Shown here one piece after another: positions 27,192 through 50,615 of a stretch of DNA of 64,000 bases. The notes beneath the pieces are model-generated. The model ran no database searches, was not told where the DNA came from, and saw only the letters and a program-made list of their open reading frames with translations. Where the stretch lies: positions 821,001-885,000 of the forward strand of contig NZ_JANQDU010000002.1 in the NCBI RefSeq assembly GCF_024723735.1, written 5' to 3'. This DNA is from Frigidibacter sp. ROC022 (GTDB lineage Bacteria > Pseudomonadota > Alphaproteobacteria > Rhodobacterales > Rhodobacteraceae). The translations under genes were made by a program, and so were the position numbers. The stretch's first letter is position 1. Each line of letters opens with the position of its first letter.

Positions 27192-28117
27192 AGCGCCGCC
27201 TCGAGCTGCGCCCAGCCGTCCGGCGCCGGCAGGCCCAGCCGCAAGAGCGTGTCGGACCAGGGGAAGACGCGCGACCAGACATGCCCGCGGGCCAGCCGTT
27301 CCTGCATCGCGCCGGCATCCGCGACCCGGTAGAGCCGGAACAGAGGCGTGCCGCCTTCCAGAACCGCCCCGGCGCCCAGCATCAACCCGTCCAGACGCGC
27401 CGCATCGGCGCGCAGCCGGTCCCGCGTGGCCTCGGCCCAGGCGCCGTCCTGCAAGGCCGCCGCACCAATCGCCAATGCCGGTCCCGAGACCGGCCAGGGG
27501 CCAAGCGCCTCGGCCAGGGCGCCGACGATGCCCGGATCGCCGATGGCAAAGCCCAGCCGCAGCCCGGCCAGACCCCAGAACTTGCCGAAACTCTTCAGCA
27601 CCAGCCGCCCGGGCCGCGTTGCCTCGGCGATCAGGCTGCGCTCCGGCATCACGTCGCAGAAACTCTCGTCGATCACGACCAGCGGCAGCGACAATTCCGA
27701 CGTGCGCCACAGCCGGCCATCGGGATTGTTCGGATGCACCACCACCATGGCGTCGCTGCCCTCGAAACTCCAGCCGGCGGCCCGGAACGCGGCCTCATGC
27801 TCGTTGTAGGTCGGGCCGGGAATGGCGACCGAGCCGCGCGGCAGCAGATGCGGCAGCCGCGCGATCAGGGCCGAGGCGCCGGGCGCCGCCAGAACCGCGG
27901 CGCCATCGGGCACTCGCCAGAAGCGTCGCGCGGCGGCCTCCAGCGCCTGCCGGGCCCCCTGATCGGGCAGTGCGGTCCATGTTTCTGCGGCCAGTTCCGG
28001 CAGCGGATAGGGCACCGGGTTGATCCCCGTGGACAGGTCGAGCCAGTCGGCCCGCTGGCCGCCGAACCTGGCGACGGCGGCATCCAGCCCGCCCCCATGA
28101 TCCCGGCCGGAACTCAT
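27188..28117 (-). CDS. cobC: L-threonine-O-3-phosphate decarboxylase
   Basis: PLP-dependent decarboxylase making (R)-1-amino-2-propanol phosphate for the nucleotide-loop arm of cobalamin. 309 residues, class I aminotransferase fold. The PLP lysine is expected in [14 protein letters not shown], and HPNNPDGR is the cofactor-contacting motif. The start [10 protein letters not shown] at 28117 overlaps the DUF1636 stop (ATGA); its stop overlaps the cobD start. The 'CobC' name follows Pseudomonas denitrificans usage. Confidence 0.92.
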
Positions 28118-28482
28118 TCCGCCCCGGGCCCGGGCAGCGGCGGGTGGCGGGTGACGAAATGGCCCTTGATCGCCTCCGGCCACTGCCGATAGGGCACCTG
28201 GCCGGTCTCGCTTGCGGCATGCAGCAGGGCCCAGTCACGGATCGCCTCGGCAGCCTCCTGCGTCGGTTCGAACCGGCCGATGGTGTAGCAGAGCTTGCCC
28301 GCCGCCTGCACCGTGACATTGCAGCCGTGGGTGCAGCCCATCAGGCAGGAATGGCGGCGCAGTTTCAGCGGTCCGGGGTCGAGCGCCTCGATCAGCCCGG
28401 CCAGCCGCGCGCCATCGGTCGGCGCTCCGGCCTCCCATCCCTCGCGTTTGCAGGTCTCGCAGATCGTGATCCAGGTGGTCAT
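28114..28482 (-). CDS. DUF1636 metal-binding protein
   Basis: 122 residues of the DUF1636 family, small thioredoxin-like ferredoxin proteins often encoded with cobalamin genes. Cysteines C10 and C13 (CETCKRE) and the pair in SCLMGCTHGCNV are placed as for a 2Fe-2S site. The ATG at 28482 starts MTTWITICETC. First gene of DUF1636-cobC-cobD, all joined by four-base overlaps, so a role in B12 synthesis or cobalt handling is likely but unproven. Confidence 0.85.
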   Translation of the reverse strand: MTTWITICETCKREGWEAGAPTDGARLAGLIEALDPGPLKLRRHSCLMGCTHGCNVTVQAAGKLCYTIGRFEPTQEAAEAIRDWALLHAASETGQVPYRQWPEAIKGHFVTRHPPLPGPGAE

Positions 28483-28588
28483 GGCGCCTCTGCCAGCTTC
28501 TGCGGCACCTTGAACCGCAATTCCCCGCAATGCGCAATTCCGTGCCGGGCATTAACCTTCGTTTCGGAACCTGGGACGACAAATCTCT

Positions 28589-32047: not shown

Positions 32048-32312
32048 GATCTGGACCAACCGACAAACCGGTCTTCAGGCAGGGACCCTTCGCGCAAACG
32101 GCCTTCTGTCGGTTTCCGCACTGCGATGCCGCGAATGCCGTTGCATCGGCGCCGGGTGCCGGGCATACCGGGTAGCAGACGAAGCCCCGCGCGGGGCCAG
32201 AAAGGTTGGCGGCCATATCCCGACCCGCACCGGGGGGAGAAAGCCGCGTCGTCGGGGGGCGTTGCCCCTTTGGCTCTGGCCGATCCGCGCCCGAATGCCG
32301 AAGGATTGACCG
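32048..32312 (+). other. Long leader region of the cobalamin operon, no gene seen
   Basis: 265 bases between the marR operator region and the first gene of the cbiX operon. Contains possible RNA structure: CGATGC/GCATCG arms around 32130-32155, CCCCGCG/CGCGGGG-type pairing near 32190-32205, and a G-run/CCCC arm near 32252-32272. I looked for cobalamin-riboswitch blocks (CCACTG, GGGAAGG, CCAGGAGACC) on both strands and found none. Confidence 0.4.
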
Positions 32313-32546
32313 ATGCGCCTGTTTTCCGCCCTGACTTCTGCCCTGGCCCTGCTGCCGATCTCCGCCCATGCCCACGCCGGCCATATCGTCGAGGCCGCCG
32401 GGCATGATCATTGGCTGGCCGCCGGGGCCGTTGCGGCCGCTGCCGCGGTGACGGCTTGGGCCGTGCTTGCGGGCCGGAAGGGGAAACCTGAAACCGGGGC
32501 CGAGCCCGAAACGGACGAGACCGAATCCGAAACCGAAAGCGCCTGA
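32313..32546 (+). CDS. Small His-containing membrane protein of the cobalamin operon
   Basis: 77 residues: signal-like segment ending AHA, the His-rich stretch HAHAGHIVEAAGHDHW, one membrane segment (about 33-53) and an acidic tail (ETDETESETESA). It resembles a small Rhodobacteraceae family I believe is catalogued as DUF6732. The next gene, cbiX, begins one base after its stop, so the two are probably translated together. The His cluster facing the periplasm suggests metal binding, perhaps cobalt or nickel; this is inference. Confidence 0.7.
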   Translation: MRLFSALTSALALLPISAHAHAGHIVEAAGHDHWLAAGAVAAAAAVTAWAVLAGRKGKPETGAEPETDETESETESA

Positions 32547-32547
32547 G

Positions 32548-33705
32548 GTGAAGGTCGGGGTCATGATCTGCGGCCACGGCTCGCGCAGCCAGTCGGCGGT
32601 GGACGAATTCGCCACGCTGGCACAGGCGCTGCCCGCCTGGCTGCCACCCGATTGGGAAACCGATTACGGCTATCTGGAATTCGCCAATCCGGTGATCCGG
32701 GTCGGGCTCGACCGGCTGCGCAAAAAGGGCTGTGACCGGATCGTCGCCGTGCCCGGGATGCTCTTCGCGGCGATGCACGCCAAGAACGACATCCCGACGG
32801 TGCTGAACGCCTATGCCGCCGAAAAGGGCATCACGGTCAGCTATGGCCGCGAACTGGGCGTCGATCCCAAGATGATCGCCGCCGCCGGGTCAAGGATCAT
32901 GGAGACCGTCGAGGCCGCCAACGCGACCGATCCGGTGCCGCTGGAAGAAACCTGCCTGGTGGTCATCGGCCGTGGCGCCTCGGACCCCGACGCCAATGGC
33001 AATGTCTCGAAAGTTGCCCGGATGCTCTGGGAAGGCCTGGGTTTCGGCTGGTGCGAGGTGGGCTATTCCGGCGTCACCTTCCCGCTGGTCGAACCCTGCC
33101 TGACCCATGTGACCAGGCTGGGTTATCGCCGGGTCGTGGTCTTTCCCTATTTTCTCTTCTCCGGCATCCTGATCGACCGGATCTACGGTTTCACCGATCA
33201 GGTGGCCGCAGCCCATCCCGAGATCCAGTTCCTCAAGGCGCCCTATCTGGGCGACCATCCGCAGGTGCTGGAGACCTTTGCCGAGAGGGTGACCGAGCAA
33301 CTGGGCGAGGTGCCGCCGCCGAACTGTGCGATGTGCAAATACCGGGTGCAGGTGCTGGGCTTCGAGGCCGAGGTCGGCACGCCGCAGGAAAGCCATCACC
33401 ACCACGTCGAGGGGCAGGGCGCCAGTGCGCCCGGTTCCAACGTGGCCGATTGCAGGCTTTGCGATGATTTCTGCACCGGAGAATGCCGGCTGGAACCGGA
33501 GGAGCCGCATGGCCATGCAAGCCACGCCGGCCCGTCGATCTTCCACGATCACGGCGACGGCAAGGCGCACTGGCACCCGCCAGCCGAGGCTTCCGGCCAC
33601 GCGCCGCAGCACGGACATATGCATGGCCACGGGCATCAGCACGGCAGCTATCCGCATGCGAAACACCCGTTGGGGCCGGAATCCGCGCGAAAGCCGAAGC
33701 CGTGA
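32548..33705 (+). CDS. cbiX: CbiX-type sirohydrochlorin cobaltochelatase with His-rich tail
   Basis: 385 residues from a GTG (ATG at 32563 is the alternative). Two chelatase repeats: the first with catalytic H10 in ICGHGSR and H77 in FAAMHAKND, the second about 135-255. After it come C260/C263 (CAMC) and C302, C305, C309, C313 (CRLCDDFCTGEC), placed for an iron-sulfur cluster. From 283 to 373 there are about 20 histidines (HHHH, HGHMHGHGHQH). The long CbiX forms with a cluster and a His region are known from Bacillus megaterium and Rhodobacter. Expected role: cobalt insertion into sirohydrochlorin or cobalt storage and delivery. Confidence 0.9.
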   Translation: MKVGVMICGHGSRSQSAVDEFATLAQALPAWLPPDWETDYGYLEFANPVIRVGLDRLRKKGCDRIVAVPGMLFAAMHAKNDIPTVLNAYAAEKGITVSYGRELGVDPKMIAAAGSRIMETVEAANATDPVPLEETCLVVIGRGASDPDANGNVSKVARMLWEGLGFGWCEVGYSGVTFPLVEPCLTHVTRLGYRRVVVFPYFLFSGILIDRIYGFTDQVAAAHPEIQFLKAPYLGDHPQVLETFAERVTEQLGEVPPPNCAMCKYRVQVLGFEAEVGTPQESHHHHVEGQGASAPGSNVADCRLCDDFCTGECRLEPEEPHGHASHAGPSIFHDHGDGKAHWHPPAEASGHAPQHGHMHGHGHQHGSYPHAKHPLGPESARKPKP

Positions 33706-33757: not shown

Positions 33758-34417
33758 ATGCGCCCCTATCTGAAGGACCCGGCCGCGATCTATGCCGCCT
33801 CTTTCGCGACGGTGCGGGCCGAGGCGCGGCTCGATCGGTTTCCGGGCCGGATGGAGGCCATGGCCGTGCGGCTGATCCATGCCTGCGGCGAGGTCGGCAT
33901 CGCCGACCGGCTGGCCTTCTCGGAAGGGGCGGTCGAGGCCGGGGCGGCGGCGCTGGCCTCGGGGGCGCCGGTGCTCTGCGATTGCCGGATGGTTGCCGCC
34001 GGGGTGATCGCGCGCAGCCTGCCCGCGGCAAATGAACTGCTGGTGACGCTGAACGATCCCGCGGTGCCCGATCTTGCGGCGCAGCTCGGGACGACGCGCT
34101 CGGCGGCGGCGGTGGACCTGTGGCGCGACCGGATCGAGGGCGCCATCGTGGCGATCGGCAACGCCCCCACGGCGCTGTTCCATCTGCTCGGCCGGCTGGA
34201 CGAGGGCTGGCCCCGCCCGGCGCTGATCCTCGGATTCCCGGTCGGCTTCGTCGGGGCGGCGGAATCGAAGGCCGAACTGGCCACCAATCCGCGCGGCTGC
34301 AACTATGTCGCCCTGAAGGGGCGGCGCGGCGGCTCGGCCCTGGCGGCGGCGGCGGTGAATGCCCTGGCCGCCGGTCTGCCGGGCGAATCCTCCCAAACGG
34401 ATCGGACAGACGCATGA
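33758..34417 (+). CDS. cobH: Precorrin-8X methylmutase
   Basis: Moves the C11 methyl group to C12, turning precorrin-8X into hydrogenobyrinic acid. 219 residues. The catalytic His is H41 in RLIHACGEVG. Other markers are CDCRMVAAGV, IGNAPTALF and GFPVGFVGAAESK. The start at 33758 is 52 bases after cbiX; the stop overlaps the cobL start (ATGA). Confidence 0.96.
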   Translation: MRPYLKDPAAIYAASFATVRAEARLDRFPGRMEAMAVRLIHACGEVGIADRLAFSEGAVEAGAAALASGAPVLCDCRMVAAGVIARSLPAANELLVTLNDPAVPDLAAQLGTTRSAAAVDLWRDRIEGAIVAIGNAPTALFHLLGRLDEGWPRPALILGFPVGFVGAAESKAELATNPRGCNYVALKGRRGGSALAAAAVNALAAGLPGESSQTDRTDA

Positions 34418-35616
34418 GCACCCCCTGGCTGCATATCGTCGGCATTGGCGAAGACGGCATGGACGGCCTTTCCCCGACCGCCCGCGCCGTGGTCGAAAGC
34501 GCCGAGGTGATCGTCGGCGGCGACCGGCATCATCGGCTGTCCGACAACGTCCGGGCCGAGCGTATCGCCTGGCCCTCGCCCTTCGATGCGGTGATCCACC
34601 TGTTGGAACGGCACCGCGGCAAGCGGCTGGTGGTGCTGGCCACCGGCGATCCGCTCTGGTTCTCGGTCGGCGCGAAGATCGTGCGGGCCCTGGGCGAGGA
34701 CGCCATCACCTTCCACCCGCAGCTTTCGGCCTTTCAGCTGGCGGCGGCGCGGATGGGCTGGTCTCTGGCCGATCTCGAGACCCTGACCGTGCATGGCCGG
34801 CCGGTGGCGCAGATGATCCCCTATATCCAGCCCGACGCCCGGCTGCTGATCCTGACTACCGGCGCCGAGACCCCGGCCGAGATTGCCTGTTTCCTGACCG
34901 AGCGGGGCTATGGCGACAGCCGCATGGTGGTGTTCTCGGCGATGGGCGGTCCGGACGAGGCGCGGGCCGAGGCGCGGGCGAAGGACTGGAAGGCGCAGGT
35001 CTCTTCCTTCAACACGCTGGCGGTCGAATGCATCGCCGGTCCCGGGGCGCAGGTCTTTTCGCGGGTGCCCGGCCTGCCGGATGCGGCCTATGCCCATGAC
35101 GGCAAGATGACCAAGCAGGAGGTCCGCGCGATCACCCTGGCGCGGCTGATGCCGATGCGCGGCGCATTGCTGTGGGATATCGGCGCCGGCTGCGGTTCGG
35201 TCGGGGTCGAGTGGATGCGTGCTGCCCCGGATGCCCGCGCCATCGGGCTGGAACCGGACCCGGGCCGCCGGGCTCTGGCGGCGCAGAATGCGGCGCAGCT
35301 GGGGACGCCCCGCTTCGACCTGCGCGACGCCACCGCGCCCGAGGGCCTGGCCAACCTGCCCGCGCCGGATGCCGTCTTCATCGGAGGCGGGCTGAGCACC
35401 GAGACCGCCGAAGCCGCCCTTGCCGCGCTGCGACCGCATGGCCGCCTGGTTGCCAATGCGGTGACGCTGGAAAGCGAATCCCTGCTGCTGGCCCTGCAGG
35501 CCCGGCTGGGCGGCGACCTCACCCGCCTCGCGATCACCCGCGCCGCCCCGGTCGGCAGCCTCACAGGCTGGCGGCCGATGATGCCGGTGACGCAATGGAG
35601 CCTGACAAAGCGATGA
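34414..35616 (+). CDS. cobL: Precorrin-6Y C5,15-methyltransferase (decarboxylating)
   Basis: Bifunctional: methylates C5 and C15 and decarboxylates the acetate chain at C12. 400 residues. The N-terminal CbiE-type half starts VGIGEDGMDGLSP and carries ATGDPLWFS; the C-terminal CbiT-type half begins after TKQEVRAITLA and has the SAM motif WDIGAGCGSVGVEW. Both junctions are four-base overlaps, with cobH upstream and cobI downstream. Confidence 0.96.
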   Translation: MSTPWLHIVGIGEDGMDGLSPTARAVVESAEVIVGGDRHHRLSDNVRAERIAWPSPFDAVIHLLERHRGKRLVVLATGDPLWFSVGAKIVRALGEDAITFHPQLSAFQLAAARMGWSLADLETLTVHGRPVAQMIPYIQPDARLLILTTGAETPAEIACFLTERGYGDSRMVVFSAMGGPDEARAEARAKDWKAQVSSFNTLAVECIAGPGAQVFSRVPGLPDAAYAHDGKMTKQEVRAITLARLMPMRGALLWDIGAGCGSVGVEWMRAAPDARAIGLEPDPGRRALAAQNAAQLGTPRFDLRDATAPEGLANLPAPDAVFIGGGLSTETAEAALAALRPHGRLVANAVTLESESLLLALQARLGGDLTRLAITRAAPVGSLTGWRPMMPVTQWSLTKR

Positions 35617-36314
35617 GCGGCACGCTCTATGGTGTCGGCCTCGGCCCGGGTGATCCCGAGTTGATGACGCTGAAGGCGGCCCGGCTGATCGAGACGGCGC
35701 GGGTCGTCGCCTATCCGATGCTGGAGGGCACGCCCAGCTTTGCCCGGCAGATCGCGGCGGGGCGGATCGCCCCCGATGCCCGGGAAATCGCGATGCCGGT
35801 GCCGATGCGGCTCGAACGCGGCCCGGCGCAGGCGGCCTATGACGCCGGGGCTCAGGCCATCGCCCAGGTGCTGGACACCGGTCAGGACGTAACCTGCCTC
35901 TGCGAAGGCGACCCGTTCTTCTATGGCTCCTTCATGTATCTCTACGCCCGTCTTGCACCCCGCTACCGGGTCGAGGTGGTGCCCGGCGTCACCTCGCTGA
36001 CCGCCGCCGCCACGCGGGCCGGGCGGCCGCTGGCGGCGCGGAACGAGGTGGTCACGGTGCTTCCCGGCCCGCTTCCGGACGCCGAACTGGAGGCCAGGAT
36101 CGACATGGCCGAAACCGTCGCGGTGCTGAAGCTCGGTCGCCATGCCGGCCGGGTCCGCGATCTGGCGGCGCGCAGGGGCTGGCTGGACCAATCGGTCTAT
36201 ATCGGCCACGCGACGCTGCCGAAAGAACATCTCTGCCCGCTGAGACAGGCCCCGGATCGGGCGCCCTACTTCTCGCTGGCCCTGATCTGCAAGGTAACCG
36301 ATCCGTGGCTGTAA
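35613..36314 (+). CDS. cobI: Precorrin-2 C20-methyltransferase
   Basis: SAM-dependent methylation of precorrin-2 at C20. 233 residues, uroporphyrin-III methylase fold: GVGLGPGDPELMTLKA at the N-terminus, CEGDPFFYGSFMYL, VPGVTSLTAAA and a C-terminal SLALICKV. The start overlaps the cobL stop; the next gene starts ten bases inside its 3' end. Slightly shorter than the 240-245 residues common in the family, with no visible loss of motif. Confidence 0.95.
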   Translation: MSGTLYGVGLGPGDPELMTLKAARLIETARVVAYPMLEGTPSFARQIAAGRIAPDAREIAMPVPMRLERGPAQAAYDAGAQAIAQVLDTGQDVTCLCEGDPFFYGSFMYLYARLAPRYRVEVVPGVTSLTAAATRAGRPLAARNEVVTVLPGPLPDAELEARIDMAETVAVLKLGRHAGRVRDLAARRGWLDQSVYIGHATLPKEHLCPLRQAPDRAPYFSLALICKVTDPWL

Positions 36315-38125
36315 ACCCCGTTGTCATTGCGCTGTCACAAGGCAGAGAAGCCACCGCGCAGGCCGTCGCCACGGCCATCGGCGGCATCGTGCATGGCCGC
36401 GAAGGCAGGGTAGACCAATCGGTCTACACCTTCCCGGATGCCCTGGCGCATATCCGCGATCTCTTCGCCGCCGGGGTGCCGGTGGTGGGGGTCTGCGCCT
36501 CGGGCATCCTGATCCGTGCGGTGGCGCCTCTGCTTTCGGACAAGCGCAGTGAACCGCCCGTGGTCTCGGTCTCGGAGGACGGGCGCATGGTGGTGCCGCT
36601 GCTGGGCGGGCATCGCGGCGCCAACCGGCTGGCGACGCGAATCGCCGAGGCTCTGGGCGGCACCGCGGCGCTGACCACGGCGGGTGAGGTCAGCCTCGGA
36701 CTGGCGCTGGACGAACCGCCCGAAGGCTGGGTGCTGGAGAACCCCGACAATGCCAAGGCGGCGATGGCGGGGGTGCTGGCGAGTGGCGGCGCCCATGTCG
36801 ATGGTGACGAGGCGGCCAAGGCCGGATGGCTCGCCGATCTGCCCTCGGTGGAAGGCGTCGATCTGATCTGCACCACTGAACCCTGGTCGGTCAGCAAGCC
36901 GACCACGCTGGTCTTCCGCCCGCAACGCGCTGCCCTTGGCGTCGGCTGTTCGCGCGACTGCCCGGCCGACGAGTTGATTGCGCTGGTCGATGGGCTGCTG
37001 GCCGAGGCCGAACTGGCCCCCAAGGCCCTGAAGGGCATCTACACGCTTGATCTCAAGGGCGACGAACCGGCGATGCTGGCGCTGGCCCGGCACCTGGACC
37101 TACCCCTGCGGCTGTTCACCGCCGATGAGCTCGAAGCCGAGACCCCGCGGCTGGAAACCCCGTCCGAAGTGGTCTTTGCCGAGGTCGGTTGCCATGGTGT
37201 CAGCGAAGCGGCGGCTCTGGCCGGAGCAGGGCCGGACGCGATCCTGGGCCATCCCAAGATCAAGACGGCCCATGCCACGGCGGCGCTGGCCATGGCGCCG
37301 CAGCCGATCACCGAGCTCAGGGGCCGGTCGCGCGGGCGGCTCTCGATCGTCGGGATCGGACCGGGGCAGGCCTCGTGGCGCACCCCGGAGGTCTCGCAAC
37401 TGGTTGCGGCGGCCGAGGAACTGGTCGGCTACTCGCTCTATCTCGACCTGCTGGGCCCCCTCGCCGCCGGCAAGCCCCGCGCGGACTTTCCGCTGGGCGG
37501 CGAAGAGGATCGCTGCCGTTACGCGCTGGAACGCGCCGCCGAGGGGCGCGAGGTGGCGCTGGTGTGCTCGGGCGACGCGGGCATCTACGCCATGGCGGCG
37601 CTGGTCTTCGAACTGCTGGACCGCGCCCCCGACAAGGGCGGGGTCAGCCGCGCCGCGCGGCCGGTGGAGATCGTCTGCTCGCCCGGCGTATCGGCCCTGC
37701 AGGGCGCCGCGGCGCGGGCCGGGGCGCCGTTGGGGCATGACTTCTGCACCATTTCGCTGTCGGACCTGCTGACCCCGCGTGACGACATCCTGCGTCGGGT
37801 CCGCGCGGCGGCCGAGGGCGATTTCGTCATCGCCTTCTACAATCCGGTGTCCAGGACCCGCCGCACCCTGCTGGCAGAGGCACGCGACATTCTGGCCGGG
37901 GCCCGACCCGGCGCCCCGGTGATGCTGGCGAGCAACCTGGGACGGCCGAAGGAGGCCGTCCGATACCTTCGGATCGAGGAGTTGCAGGTGGATGACGTGG
38001 ACATGCTGACGGTGGTTCTGGTCGGCTCCAGCGCCTCGCGCCTGATCCGGCTGCCGGATGGCGACCGTATCTATACCCCGCGCGGCTACGCGAAGAAGCT
38101 GGCGACAGGGGAGGCAGGCACATGA
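36305..38125 (+). CDS. cobJ: CbiG-CobJ fusion: precorrin-3B C17-methyltransferase
   Basis: 606 residues from a GTG overlapping cobI by ten bases. Residues 1-200 are the CbiG N-terminal and central parts (VCASGILIRAVAPLL, GGHRGANRLA); 209-330 the CbiG/CobE C-terminal domain (LGVGCSRDCPADEL, GHPKIKTAHAT); 344-606 a CobJ methyltransferase (VGIGPGQASWRTPEV, CSGDAGIYAMAAL, PGVSALQGAAARAG, ASNLGRPKEAVRYL). CobJ performs C17 methylation and ring contraction; CbiG opens the delta-lactone in the cobalt-early route. No separate cobE or cobG is in the window. Confidence 0.93.
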   Translation: MAVNPVVIALSQGREATAQAVATAIGGIVHGREGRVDQSVYTFPDALAHIRDLFAAGVPVVGVCASGILIRAVAPLLSDKRSEPPVVSVSEDGRMVVPLLGGHRGANRLATRIAEALGGTAALTTAGEVSLGLALDEPPEGWVLENPDNAKAAMAGVLASGGAHVDGDEAAKAGWLADLPSVEGVDLICTTEPWSVSKPTTLVFRPQRAALGVGCSRDCPADELIALVDGLLAEAELAPKALKGIYTLDLKGDEPAMLALARHLDLPLRLFTADELEAETPRLETPSEVVFAEVGCHGVSEAAALAGAGPDAILGHPKIKTAHATAALAMAPQPITELRGRSRGRLSIVGIGPGQASWRTPEVSQLVAAAEELVGYSLYLDLLGPLAAGKPRADFPLGGEEDRCRYALERAAEGREVALVCSGDAGIYAMAALVFELLDRAPDKGGVSRAARPVEIVCSPGVSALQGAAARAGAPLGHDFCTISLSDLLTPRDDILRRVRAAAEGDFVIAFYNPVSRTRRTLLAEARDILAGARPGAPVMLASNLGRPKEAVRYLRIEELQVDDVDMLTVVLVGSSASRLIRLPDGDRIYTPRGYAKKLATGEAGT

Positions 38126-38892
38126 CCGTCTGGTTTGTCGGCGCCGGTCCGGGCGACCCCGAGCTTCTGACCCGCAAGGCGGAACGGATCATCAGTTCTT
38201 GTCCGGTCTGCCTCTATGCCGGCTCGCTGGTGCCGCCGGAAGTGGTCGCCATCGCCCCCGAAGGCGCAAGGGTGCTGGACACCGCGCCGATGACGCTGGA
38301 TCAGACCCATGCCGAGATCGTCGCCGCCCATGCCAGGGGGCAGGACGTGGCGCGGGTGCATTCCGGCGATCCCTCGCTCTATGGCGCGATTGCCGAGCAG
38401 ATCCGGCGGCTGCGTGCCGAGGGCATCGACTATCGGATCGTGCCCGGCGTGCCCGCCTATGCGGCAGCGGCGGCGGCCCTGGGGCAGGAGCTGACGATCC
38501 CCGAGATCGCCCAGAGCATCGTCCTGACCCGGGTGGCGATGAAATCCTCGTCGATGCCGCCCGGCGAGACGCTGGAGAATTTCGCCCGCACCGGCGCCAC
38601 GCTGGCGATCCATCTTGGCGTCCGGGCGCTGCTCGAGATCGAGCGGCAACTGGTGCCCTTCTACGGCCCGACCTGCCCGGTGGTGATCGCCTATCGGGTC
38701 GGCTGGCCGGATCAGAAGCTGATTCGCACCGATCTGACCGAGATGCGGGCCGCGGCGCGGGCCGAGAAGATCACCCGCACCGCCCTGATCCTGGTCGGCC
38801 CGGCCCTGGGCGAGGTGACGGAGTTCCGCGATTCGGCGCTCTATGACGCCAGCATCCCGCATGTGCTGCGGCCCAAGGTGGCCAAGGGCTGA
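38122..38892 (+). CDS. cobM: Precorrin-4 C11-methyltransferase
   Basis: Methylates precorrin-4 at C11. 256 residues: WFVGAGPGDPELLTRKA at the start, CPVCLYAGSLVPPEV, RVHSGDPSLYGAI, PGVPAYAAAAAALGQELT and a C-terminal ALILVGPAL. The start overlaps the cobJ stop (ATGA). Last gene of the plus-strand cobalamin operon; cobK, often next, is not here. Confidence 0.96.
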   Translation: MTVWFVGAGPGDPELLTRKAERIISSCPVCLYAGSLVPPEVVAIAPEGARVLDTAPMTLDQTHAEIVAAHARGQDVARVHSGDPSLYGAIAEQIRRLRAEGIDYRIVPGVPAYAAAAAALGQELTIPEIAQSIVLTRVAMKSSSMPPGETLENFARTGATLAIHLGVRALLEIERQLVPFYGPTCPVVIAYRVGWPDQKLIRTDLTEMRAAARAEKITRTALILVGPALGEVTEFRDSALYDASIPHVLRPKVAKG

Positions 38893-44468: not shown

Positions 44469-48152
<3,684 letters not shown>

Positions 48153-48260: not shown

Positions 48261-49289
48261 CTAGCGGCTCAACGCCGCTTCGATCGCGGCCCGGTCGAGA
48301 CCGGTCTCGCCGATCACCACCAGCCGGGTCTCGCGCGGTTCCGAGGCGGCCAGCGGCCGGTCGAAATAGGTCTCGACCCGGGGCCCGACCGCCTGGATGG
48401 TCAGCCGCATCGGCTTGCCCGCGACCGATCCGAAGCCCTTCAGGCGCAGGATGTCATGGCTGCGGATGGTGTCGGCGATCCGGGCCGCGAAGGCGGAGGG
48501 GTCGGTGATCTCGGGGCGGGTGATGATGAAGCTCTCGAATTCGTCGTGGTCGTGATCCTCGCCCTCGGCATCGTGATGCGGCGCCTTGCGGTCATCGGAT
48601 TCGGCGGCGGCCTTGTGCCCCAGCAGCACTTCGCAGGGCAGGGCGCCCATGGTGCTGCGCAGGACCTGCACCGAGGGCCGGGTCCCGGCCTTGAGCCGGG
48701 CGATCAGCGCTTCGGTCTCGGCCTCGGTCAGAAGGTCGGCCTTGTTGACGACCACCAGGTCGGCGCAGGCCAGCTGATCGTCGAACAGCTCCGACAGCGG
48801 CGTTTCGTGATCGAGATTGTCGTCTTCGGCGCGGGCGGCATCGACGGCGGCCTCGTCATGGGCGAAGCGGCCTTCCGAGACCGCTTTTCCATCCACCACC
48901 GTCACCACGCCATCCACCGTGACGCGGGTCGAGATGCCGGGCCAGTTGAAGGCCCGGACCAGCGGCTGCGGCAGGGCCAGGCCGGACGTCTCGATCAGGA
49001 TGTGATCGGGCGGTTCGGGCCGGGCCAGCAGCTTTTCCAGCGCCGGGATGAAGTCATCGGCGACGGTGCAGCAGATGCAGCCGTTCGAAAGCTCGACGAC
49101 GTCCTCGTCGGTGCAGGTCTCGTCGCCGCAGCCCTTCAGGATGTCGCCATCGACGCCGAGATCGCCGAATTCGTTGATGATGAGGGCGATGCGGCGCCCC
49201 CCGGCATTGGCCAGGAGGTGGCGGATCAGGGTGGTCTTTCCGGCGCCGAGAAAGCCGGTGACGATGGTGGCGGGGGTCTTTGCGGGCAT
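48261..49289 (-). CDS. cobW: CobW-family cobalt chaperone GTPase
   Basis: G3E GTPase thought to deliver cobalt to the CobN chelatase. 342 residues: Walker A GFLGAGKTT, the metal-binding CxCC motif in NGCICCTV, the NKAD guanine motif (VVVNKADLL), a His/Asp-rich loop (HHDAEGEDHDHDE) that could hold metal, and a C-terminal CobW_C domain with RLKGF. Lies between cbiM and cobN, as expected for a cobalt handover operon. Confidence 0.96.
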   Translation of the reverse strand: MPAKTPATIVTGFLGAGKTTLIRHLLANAGGRRIALIINEFGDLGVDGDILKGCGDETCTDEDVVELSNGCICCTVADDFIPALEKLLARPEPPDHILIETSGLALPQPLVRAFNWPGISTRVTVDGVVTVVDGKAVSEGRFAHDEAAVDAARAEDDNLDHETPLSELFDDQLACADLVVVNKADLLTEAETEALIARLKAGTRPSVQVLRSTMGALPCEVLLGHKAAAESDDRKAPHHDAEGEDHDHDEFESFIITRPEITDPSAFAARIADTIRSHDILRLKGFGSVAGKPMRLTIQAVGPRVETYFDRPLAASEPRETRLVVIGETGLDRAAIEAALSR

Positions 49290-50041: not shown

Positions 50042-50094
50042 CTTCGGTCTCCTTGGCCTGTCACACCCGACAGGCGGTTGAGGTTTCACGACGC

Positions 50095-50282
50095 ATGGCT
50101 GGTCTCCTGGCTCGCGGGTCGCGGCGCCTGTCCACCTTCCCGGAATGGTTTCCAGTGGTCATTGGACGGACGCTCGCCGCTTACAGTCGCGGGGGCGGCT
50201 GCGGCTTCCGGTTCCTGATTGGATCCCCGGTTCCGCATTCCCAGTTCGTCCCCTGAGGCTGAGCCTCAATCGGGGAACCATG
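50095..50282 (-). promoter_or_regulatory. Cobalamin riboswitch of cbiM-cobW-cobN
   Basis: The minus strand carries the conserved blocks in order: GGTTCCCC near 50280, CCCCCGCGACTGTAA at 50195-50181, CCACTGG at 50158-50152, GGGAAGG at 50141-50135 and the B12 box GCCAGGAGACC at 50111-50101. It ends about 55 bases ahead of cbiM. Adenosylcobalamin binding should lower expression of the cobalt uptake and insertion genes. The best-supported regulatory element in the window. Confidence 0.93.
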
Positions 50283-50615
50283 CCGGGTGAGTGTGAGCCC
50301 GGGCCGGAGCCGGGTCAAGGGGCCTTTGCGACCGCCCGAAGCGGGGGAGCGACAGGCGTCCCCATGGGGACGGGGGGTCAAGTTGTTGAAAATGCGGCAA
50401 AAGCCGTGGGGACGGTGGTTATGGTTAATCAGGGGTTAGCGGAAGTCGGGGTGAAACTGCCCGTTCGCCTTCAGGGACGGCTGATACAAGGGGAGGGGAG
50501 TGGACTTTCGCTGCACGGAACATCGATGTCTACAATGTGGGACGAAGCGGACATTCAATAGTGGCGACGGCTCCGACAAATCATGGATTTCGAAGTTTCA
50601 CCGGATGCTCTTGCG
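50283..50615. other. Gap with falling GC, no gene seen
   Basis: 333 bases between the riboswitch and the SRPBCC gene. GC drops from typical values near 50350 to about half by 50500. I find no gene, hairpin terminator or repeat I trust. The riboswitch promoter should lie in the first part. The right part, including GTGGACTTTCGCTGC at about 50501, may be a decayed gene remnant. Confidence 0.4.

Follow-up and report, generated by a model that had tools for sequence, protein, structure and literature searches.

A CbiX(L)-type protein as a candidate replacement for CobG in Rhodobacteraceae, encoded behind a structured RNA leader

Results

The cbiX operon and the B12 region of Frigidibacter sp. ROC022

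The window, that is the whole stretch of DNA analysed here, comprises 64,000 nucleotides of the Frigidibacter sp. ROC022 genome (contig NZ_JANQDU010000002.1, positions 821,001 to 885,000). The gene cbiX (32548-33705, + strand) has a GTG start and encodes a CbiX-L type protein of 385 amino acids, in which a profile search identified the CbiX domain PF01903 twice (164 bits). It is the only gene of this genome with a PF01903 match. Downstream on the same strand follow cobH (33758-34417; PF02570, NF006136 above cut-off), cobL of the CbiE-CbiT type (34414-35616; TIGR02467 and TIGR02469 above cut-off), cobI (35613-36314; TIGR01467 above cut-off), a gene for a CbiG(N+C)-CobJ fusion (36305-38125; PF11760, PF01890 and TIGR01466 above cut-off) and cobM (38122-38892; TIGR01465 above cut-off). 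An earlier note on this DNA had described cbiX as heading a cobHLIJM operon. This gene order was confirmed, but the cobJ gene codes for the CbiG-CobJ fusion, and cbiX is itself preceded by an open reading frame (ORF) with a DUF6732 domain and by an RNA leader.

The leader, a riboswitch candidate detected with a covariance model (32175-32256, + strand), has a helix P1 (GACGA/TCGTC) that closes three further helices. The DUF6732 ORF (32313-32546, + strand; PF20506, E 5.9e-19) encodes a small membrane-protein-like product with an HxGH..GHDHW motif and an acidic tail, and cbiX begins one base after it. For comparison, we used 90 CbiX loci (80 named loci and 10 from the family set), several of which end at contig edges. 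The named loci were 80 of 415 relatives, with titles giving Rhodobacteraceae, Rhodobacterales, genera of the group or, in a few cases, plain alphaproteobacterium; the carriers include Planktomarina, Roseovarius and Jannaschia. At least 53 of the 90 loci have an ORF with the same motif directly 5′ of cbiX (random-position control: 1/450), and DUF6732 is a possible metal hand-off partner of CbiX. Another ORF, which we take to be glutathionyl-hydroquinone-reductase-like, is found near cbiX in 55/90 loci and is less constant than CbiX.

The genes for late cobalt insertion, a CbiM-like gene and a cobalamin riboswitch are located on the opposite strand, 11-17 kb from cbiX. The late genes are cobN of the long type (44469-48152, - strand; TIGR02257, 1574 bits) and cobW (48261-49289, - strand; TIGR02475, 508 bits), and the order CbiM-like-cobW-cobN is headed by the riboswitch (50080-50297, - strand; RF00174, 120 bits). 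This agrees with the earlier note, which placed CobN and CobW 11 kb away under such a riboswitch. A DUF1636 protein is encoded next to cobC (28114-28530, - strand); in Bradyrhizobium, Phaeobacter and Novosphingobium, DUF1636 is likewise part of CobG clusters, where it adjoins cobW or cobT.

Anatomy of the CbiX protein

Two catalytic-type histidines, His10 (32575-32577, + strand) and His77 (32776-32778, + strand), are located in the N-terminal CbiX domain, which is the CbiX(L) layout. The C-terminal CbiX domain carries a GRG motif with R142 in place of the His pair in 91/91 sequences. Altogether, the protein contains 11 cysteines, of which six are clustered in the tail (residues 260, 263, 302, 305, 309 and 313). 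The first two form the motif CAMC (residues 260-263; 33325-33336, + strand), the counterpart of the CbiX-L CxxC site, and the other four form a second cluster, CX2CX3CX3C (residues 302-313; 33451-33486, + strand). Beyond residue 280 there are 20 histidines, 16 of which are part of a variable His-rich tail (33508-33666, + strand). Thus, both the CxxC motif and the His-rich tail of the CbiX(L) type are present, as the first reading of this stretch had it with six clustered cysteines and about 20 C-terminal histidines. Conservation puts this anatomy beyond chance: the H10/H77 pair is kept in 91/91 sequences and each of the six tail cysteines in 90/91. The linker QESHHHHVEGQGASAPGSNV is likewise near-invariant; within the family, the number of histidines after residue 250 ranges from 4 to 41 (median 23).

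Comparison with eight CbiX proteins from other lineages showed that CxxC occurs in seven of them; the second cluster was not seen in any of the eight. These eight were called cobalt-early, Manganitrophus being so labelled without a cluster that proves it. The best Foldseek matches of CbiX are to B. subtilis SirB. The AlphaFold model has a pLDDT below 50 for residues 255-299 and 320-363, and therefore we make no claim on the geometry of the Cys clusters.

One family member differs. In genome G111 (locus L157, cbiX from position ~9465) CbiX is 48% identical and the tail Cys clusters are absent; CobN and the RNA leader are present and CobG was not found in this genome. The CbiX proteins of Halorubrum (locus L167, 9953-11179) and Thermus (locus L182, 11933-13039) have a different C-terminal Cys-bearing extension, and from these sequences different Cys domains seem to have been added to CbiX in separate lineages. 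On a Deinococcus taeanensis plasmid (locus L166, 11953-13569) CbiX is fused to CobH in a single protein of 538 amino acids.

CbiX and CobG are not found in the same genome

The distribution of both proteins was determined in 150 genomes of the Rhodobacteraceae family, one per genus and with a completeness of at least 95% each. CbiX relatives occur in 53 genomes, CobG in 51 and neither in 46; no genome contains both (0/150; Fisher p 3e-13 with genomes treated as independent). CbiX was counted as BLAST relatives of the Frigidibacter protein, a count that does not include SirB-type CbiX; identities are 62-100% in 52 genomes, G111 being the remaining one. The CobG count comprises 27 genomes above the curated cut-off and 24 below it, the latter with 174-233 bits and nearly the whole profile covered. 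It is backed by synteny in 20 of the 51 regions, each of which has CobN, CobG and CobH in a row, and the least certain call is that in G114. CysI-like matches in three genomes (G021, G074 and G087), which start at profile position 17, were left out.

The long type of CobN is present in 53/53 CbiX genomes, and CbiX is missing from none of the 53 long-CobN genomes. At the strict threshold, the remaining CobN matches belong to 10 CobG genomes, in which a shorter CobN adjoins CobG. The pairing of CbiX and CobN does not depend on neighbourhood throughout: the two are more than 100 kb apart on one contig in 6/53 genomes and on separate contigs in 13/53, some of these assemblies being fragmented. A CobT match was found in 52/53 CbiX genomes. 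Thus, early- and late-type chelatases in one B12 region, which the earlier note had singled out, are a general feature of the CbiX class. CobT was rejected as a marker of B12 capacity, since 148/150 genomes carry a match, including genomes without CbiX and CobG; CobT may serve a function other than B12 synthesis.

We also considered CobZ as the missing enzyme. Matches to TIGR02485 (CobZ-N-type) above cut-off occur in 13/53 CbiX genomes, 12/51 CobG genomes and 15/46 genomes of the neither class, and therefore they do not discriminate. CobZ was rejected; the matches are mostly in open frames of ~460-530 amino acids, which are presumably TcuA-like. Precorrin-2 dehydrogenase was found more often in the CbiX class (48/53) than in the CobG class (29/51; p 1e-4), which would favour sirohydrochlorin as a substrate.

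A CobT tree was used as a proxy for the species tree. It holds 119 of 120 rows (G012 was dropped because of stops), and 30 of the 150 genomes are outside it. It requires 18 changes of the class label, at least 9 of which are forced by supported branches, and therefore the CbiX and CobG solutions seem to have taken turns more than once. The Frigidibacter genome is placed among CobG and neither-class genera. An independent-pair sign test of the exclusion on the same tree is borderline (median p 0.0625), and since operons move as cassettes, the exclusion may partly reflect inheritance.

B12 pathway genes of the Frigidibacter genome

Altogether, eight tetrapyrrole-methylase matches were identified in the genome. 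Four are located in the window; CobA, CysG, an RsmI-like protein and CobF are encoded outside, CobA and the RsmI-like protein being named from their translations. CysG has a dehydrogenase domain, which is borne out by TIGR01470, and CobF is 51-54% identical to annotated CobF proteins. CobN and CobT are present as well. A profile search of this genome with TIGR00312 gave no CbiD match. No CobG match was above cut-off; the single match below it lies beside cysG and was read as a sulfite reductase. The CobZ C-terminal model had no match in the genome, and matches to the N-terminal model were short, weak and below cut-off. Of the cobalt-late markers, CobF, CobN and CobT are thus present in this genome, and neither CobG nor CobZ was found.

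Two cassettes with related enzymes

All 20 CobG regions inspected (of 51) contain cobW, cobN, cobG, cobH, cobI, cobJ, cobL, cobM and cobF. In the CbiX loci, cobH, cobL, cobI, the CbiG-CobJ fusion and cobM are each found in 80 to 88 of 90. The B12-named parts of the CbiX cassette to which nothing was seen to correspond in the CobG cassette are CbiX and the full-length CbiG domain; a search with the CbiG N-domain gave no match in the 20 CobG regions. Apparent CobF matches inside CbiX loci (27-32% identity, at the position of cobI) were not counted.

When the proteins were compared with seven reference species, CobH, CobL, CobI and CobN matched best to Azotobacter, a CobG user, and CobM and CobF to other CobG users. 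The best match of the CobJ domain was the cobalt-early Methylomonas, with 179 vs 157 bits for Azotobacter. Among plasmids the CobJ domain matched best to Kovacikia, whose fusion has a CobG-like ORF in its vicinity. In quick trees of CobI and CobJ, the CbiX class, including the CobI of Frigidibacter, groups with CobG users, and the cobalt-early rows (seven and eight, respectively) split off with support values of 96 and 99. The trees of CobH and CobM have very long branches; one cobalt-early row falls within the CbiX class in the CobH tree, and the cobalt-early rows are united only at 66 in the CobM tree.

In Azotobacter, cobG lies directly before cobH, which is the slot of cbiX in Frigidibacter. 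CbiG was rejected as proof of a cobalt-early route, since in Azotobacter a CbiG(N)-CobJ fusion is accompanied by CobG, and in Kovacikia the fusion has the CobG-like ORF nearby. A plasmid of Azospirillum sp. B510 (locus L178) carries cobG, a cbiD-type gene and cobN in one cluster; by its gene content, aerobic and anaerobic steps are combined here as well.

A covarying RNA leader ahead of the cbiX operon

A profile built from 44 seeds of the same loci detected the leader 126-446 nucleotides 5′ of cbiX in 85/91 loci, and a covariance model recovered it in 4 of the 6 remaining ones. Altogether, a covarying RNA leader of ~80 nucleotides precedes the operon in 89/91 CbiX loci. The Frigidibacter leader scores 74.7 bits with the model, its sequence being part of the training set. 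In the 20 CobG regions, in 17 B12 regions of other kinds and in two more stretches of the Frigidibacter genome, the model gave no match better than E 0.14; one further weak match (E 0.55) is located in the window.

The alignment contains 57 of the 85 sequences, after removal of near-copies, then of 13 rows that misfit the pattern and of two mis-trimmed rows. RNAalifold predicted 15 pairs, 9 of them with compensatory changes, and a further helix, in which 76.8% of the cells pair, was taken from the alignment. Across the 57 sequences, 20 leader pairs form in 91.9% of the cells, and 14 pairs show changes on both sides. Two-sided changes number 116, compared with 39.7 in shuffled alignments (0/500) and 24-56 in slid controls. 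The full pairing of P1 is partly by choice, since rows were trimmed by patterns at both P1 ends; the inner helices are outside this choice.

Searches with Rfam 15 showed no family at the window leader at E≤10 beyond two sX6 matches of 11 bits (gathering threshold 40), and no family above its gathering threshold at the leader in 7 loci. In 6 more loci, searched at E up to 5, the sole overlap was a sub-threshold sRNA match in locus L101 (26.7 bits, gathering threshold 48). When plasmids were searched with a single leader sequence, the only matches were two weak ones in Streptomyces. The leader core pairs with the following 75 nucleotides more strongly than shuffled sequences do (mean z -1.34; 34/57 below -1, one above +1), a property that would be in keeping with a switching platform. 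As a conserved structure that covaries and precedes an operon, the leader is a riboswitch candidate. It resembles the cobalamin riboswitch RF00174 in being a cis-regulatory RNA before B12 genes, but the cbiX leader gives no match to the RF00174 model.

Discussion

CbiX as a putative pathway enzyme

Since CbiX is present where the other B12-producing members of the family have CobG, an O2-using enzyme, a key step of B12 synthesis may be carried out by an unrecognised enzyme. We propose that CbiX acts as an enzyme of the B12 pathway in place of CobG, and give this reading a probability of roughly one half. It probably stands in for CobG at ring contraction rather than acting only as a buffer, because it is not found with CobG in the genomes searched, occurs constantly with CobN, is accompanied by CobI and CobJ that group with those of CobG users, and occupies the slot of cobG. 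The earlier note had suggested that CbiX may be a buffer or delivery protein rather than a pathway enzyme. The second half of this suggestion was not supported: CbiX occurs with CobG in 0/150 genomes, is missing from 0/53 long-CobN genomes, keeps the His pair and sits in the cobG slot, all of which would indicate that the pathway needs it.

In the proposed pathway the cobalt-late set (CobI, CobJ, CobM, CobF, CobL, CobH, CobN, CobT and CobW) would be kept, a known precorrin-3B synthase would be missing, and CbiX would take its operon slot. The chelatase cleft would bind a ring similar to sirohydrochlorin, either precorrin-3A or this compound in oxidised form, and a metal at H10/H77 would enable ring contraction. 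There are two options for this step. CbiX might act as a metal-dependent oxygenase whose O2 chemistry draws on an Fe-S cluster of the Cys domain; alternatively, the metal that it inserts might permit an O2-independent contraction. For an oxidation of precorrin-3A would speak that CobF, CobN, CobT and a CobI of the CobG-user type are kept and that the near-invariant Cys domain is not seen in the eight CbiX proteins of other lineages. For metal insertion would speak the invariant His pair of the chelatase and the higher frequency of precorrin-2 dehydrogenase compared with the CobG class. The His tail would buffer the metal of CbiX, DUF6732 may hand metal in, and the operon may be tuned by its own RNA leader.

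The most specific form of this proposal remains tentative: a cobalt-late, chelatase-fold third precorrin-3B synthase, after CobG and CobZ, which would oxidise precorrin-3A with a His-bound metal and a six-Cys Fe-S domain and whose operon would be controlled by an undescribed riboswitch class. Against a replacement speaks G111, in which CbiX has no Cys clusters and CobG was not found; the invariant His pair would also fit an ordinary cobaltochelatase, and a strongly diverged CobG or CobZ could have escaped the models.

Other readings of the same data

The pathway might be classical and cobalt-early, with CbiX(L) putting cobalt into sirohydrochlorin, cobalt intermediates throughout, CbiG opening the lactone and CobNST serving for salvage or as a backup. 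The CbiX(L) anatomy with its N-terminal His pair, the complete CbiG domain beside CobJ and the precorrin-2 dehydrogenase in 48/53 genomes would agree with this. CbiX and CobN also coexist in haloarchaea, and for the late chelatase there the part consulted of PMC8305020 says that it "may be a salvage reaction". However, CbiD was not detected and CobF is present in the Frigidibacter genome, CobI and CobJ fall with those of CobG users, Azotobacter combines CobG with a CbiG(N)-CobJ fusion, and CobN is kept in 53/53 genomes. We consider this reading doubtful.

It is quite unlikely that CbiX is solely a cobalt (or iron) buffer or delivery protein for CobW/CobNST, with the CobG step left to another enzyme. 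Such a function would be in line with the 20 tail histidines, the variable His tail across the family and the His-rich DUF6732 partner. The suggestion of a metal store is reasonable, and storage and delivery were previously proposed for the CbiX(L) tail of B. megaterium, as far as the sections seen of PMC7689651 go. A buffer role alone would fit poorly with the co-occurrence with CobN and the exclusion of CobG, and the catalytic-type His pair is kept in 91/91 sequences. Moreover, the 20 CobG regions have CobN and CobW, yet their genomes contain no CbiX match. CbiX could still be a buffer in addition to its role in the pathway.

A Paracoccus-like function as sirohydrochlorin ferrochelatase for siroheme is highly improbable: alphaproteobacterial CbiX proteins with a siroheme role exist (PMC4063343, seen in part) and SirB is the nearest fold, but the His pair is N-terminal here and C-terminal in the Paracoccus enzyme, the Frigidibacter CysG has a dehydrogenase domain whose model matches 48/53 CbiX genomes, and CbiX is found only in genomes with CobN.

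Implications

CbiX or CobG is present in 104 genera. Of these, 53 are without CobG, and 40 of the 53 are also without a CobZ-N-type match. Among Roseobacter members, the potential to make B12 is described as widespread (PMC9426536, as far as consulted). Should the 53 genera produce B12, the way in which they contract the ring calls for an explanation, and pathway assignments that take cobG as a sign of the aerobic route and cbiX as a sign of the anaerobic one would classify them wrongly. The RNA leader opens a second and independent line of inquiry: its ligand should tell to which signal the operon responds. Within the parts of the open literature that we searched, we found neither a statement that CbiX replaces CobG nor a description of the leader. 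The observation from which this work started, a tailed CbiX and both chelatases together, was already in print; new is the distribution.

Comparison with known systems

The closest described protein is CbiX(L) of Bacillus (Priestia) megaterium. According to the parts seen of PMC7689651, it consists of two fused CbiX domains with an N-terminal His pair, and it has a 4Fe-4S site and a His-rich tail, which can be deleted with cobalt insertion kept. The two domains, the N-terminal His pair, the Cys site and the His-rich tail are shared with the Frigidibacter protein. As far as that description goes, the second cluster CX2CX3CX3C and the near-invariant linker set the Frigidibacter protein apart. 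The setting differs as well: cbiX is found here among CobF and CobN, and CbiD was not found in this genome.

CobG employs an Fe-S cluster plus iron. It belongs to a family unrelated to CbiX and shares a genome with it in 0/150 cases, but it has the same operon slot before cobH and, if our reading is correct, the same pathway step. The gene cobG is part of the set cobAIGJFMKLHB, which has served for making hydrogenobyrinic acid a,c-diamide (PMC10206600). A precedent for a distinct enzyme at the CobG step is CobZ of Rhodobacter capsulatus, a quite distinct enzyme for the CobG reaction and, by the title of the paper, a flavin/haem/Fe-S protein (PMC7242693, seen in part); its models found no counterpart above cut-off in the Frigidibacter genome. 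The CbiX-SirB proteins of Paracoccus and Rhodobacter have the chelatase fold and the CbiX annotation in common with the protein described here, but differ in their C-terminal His pair and siroheme role (PMC4063343, same parts), whereas the pair of the Frigidibacter protein is N-terminal, as in CbiX(L).
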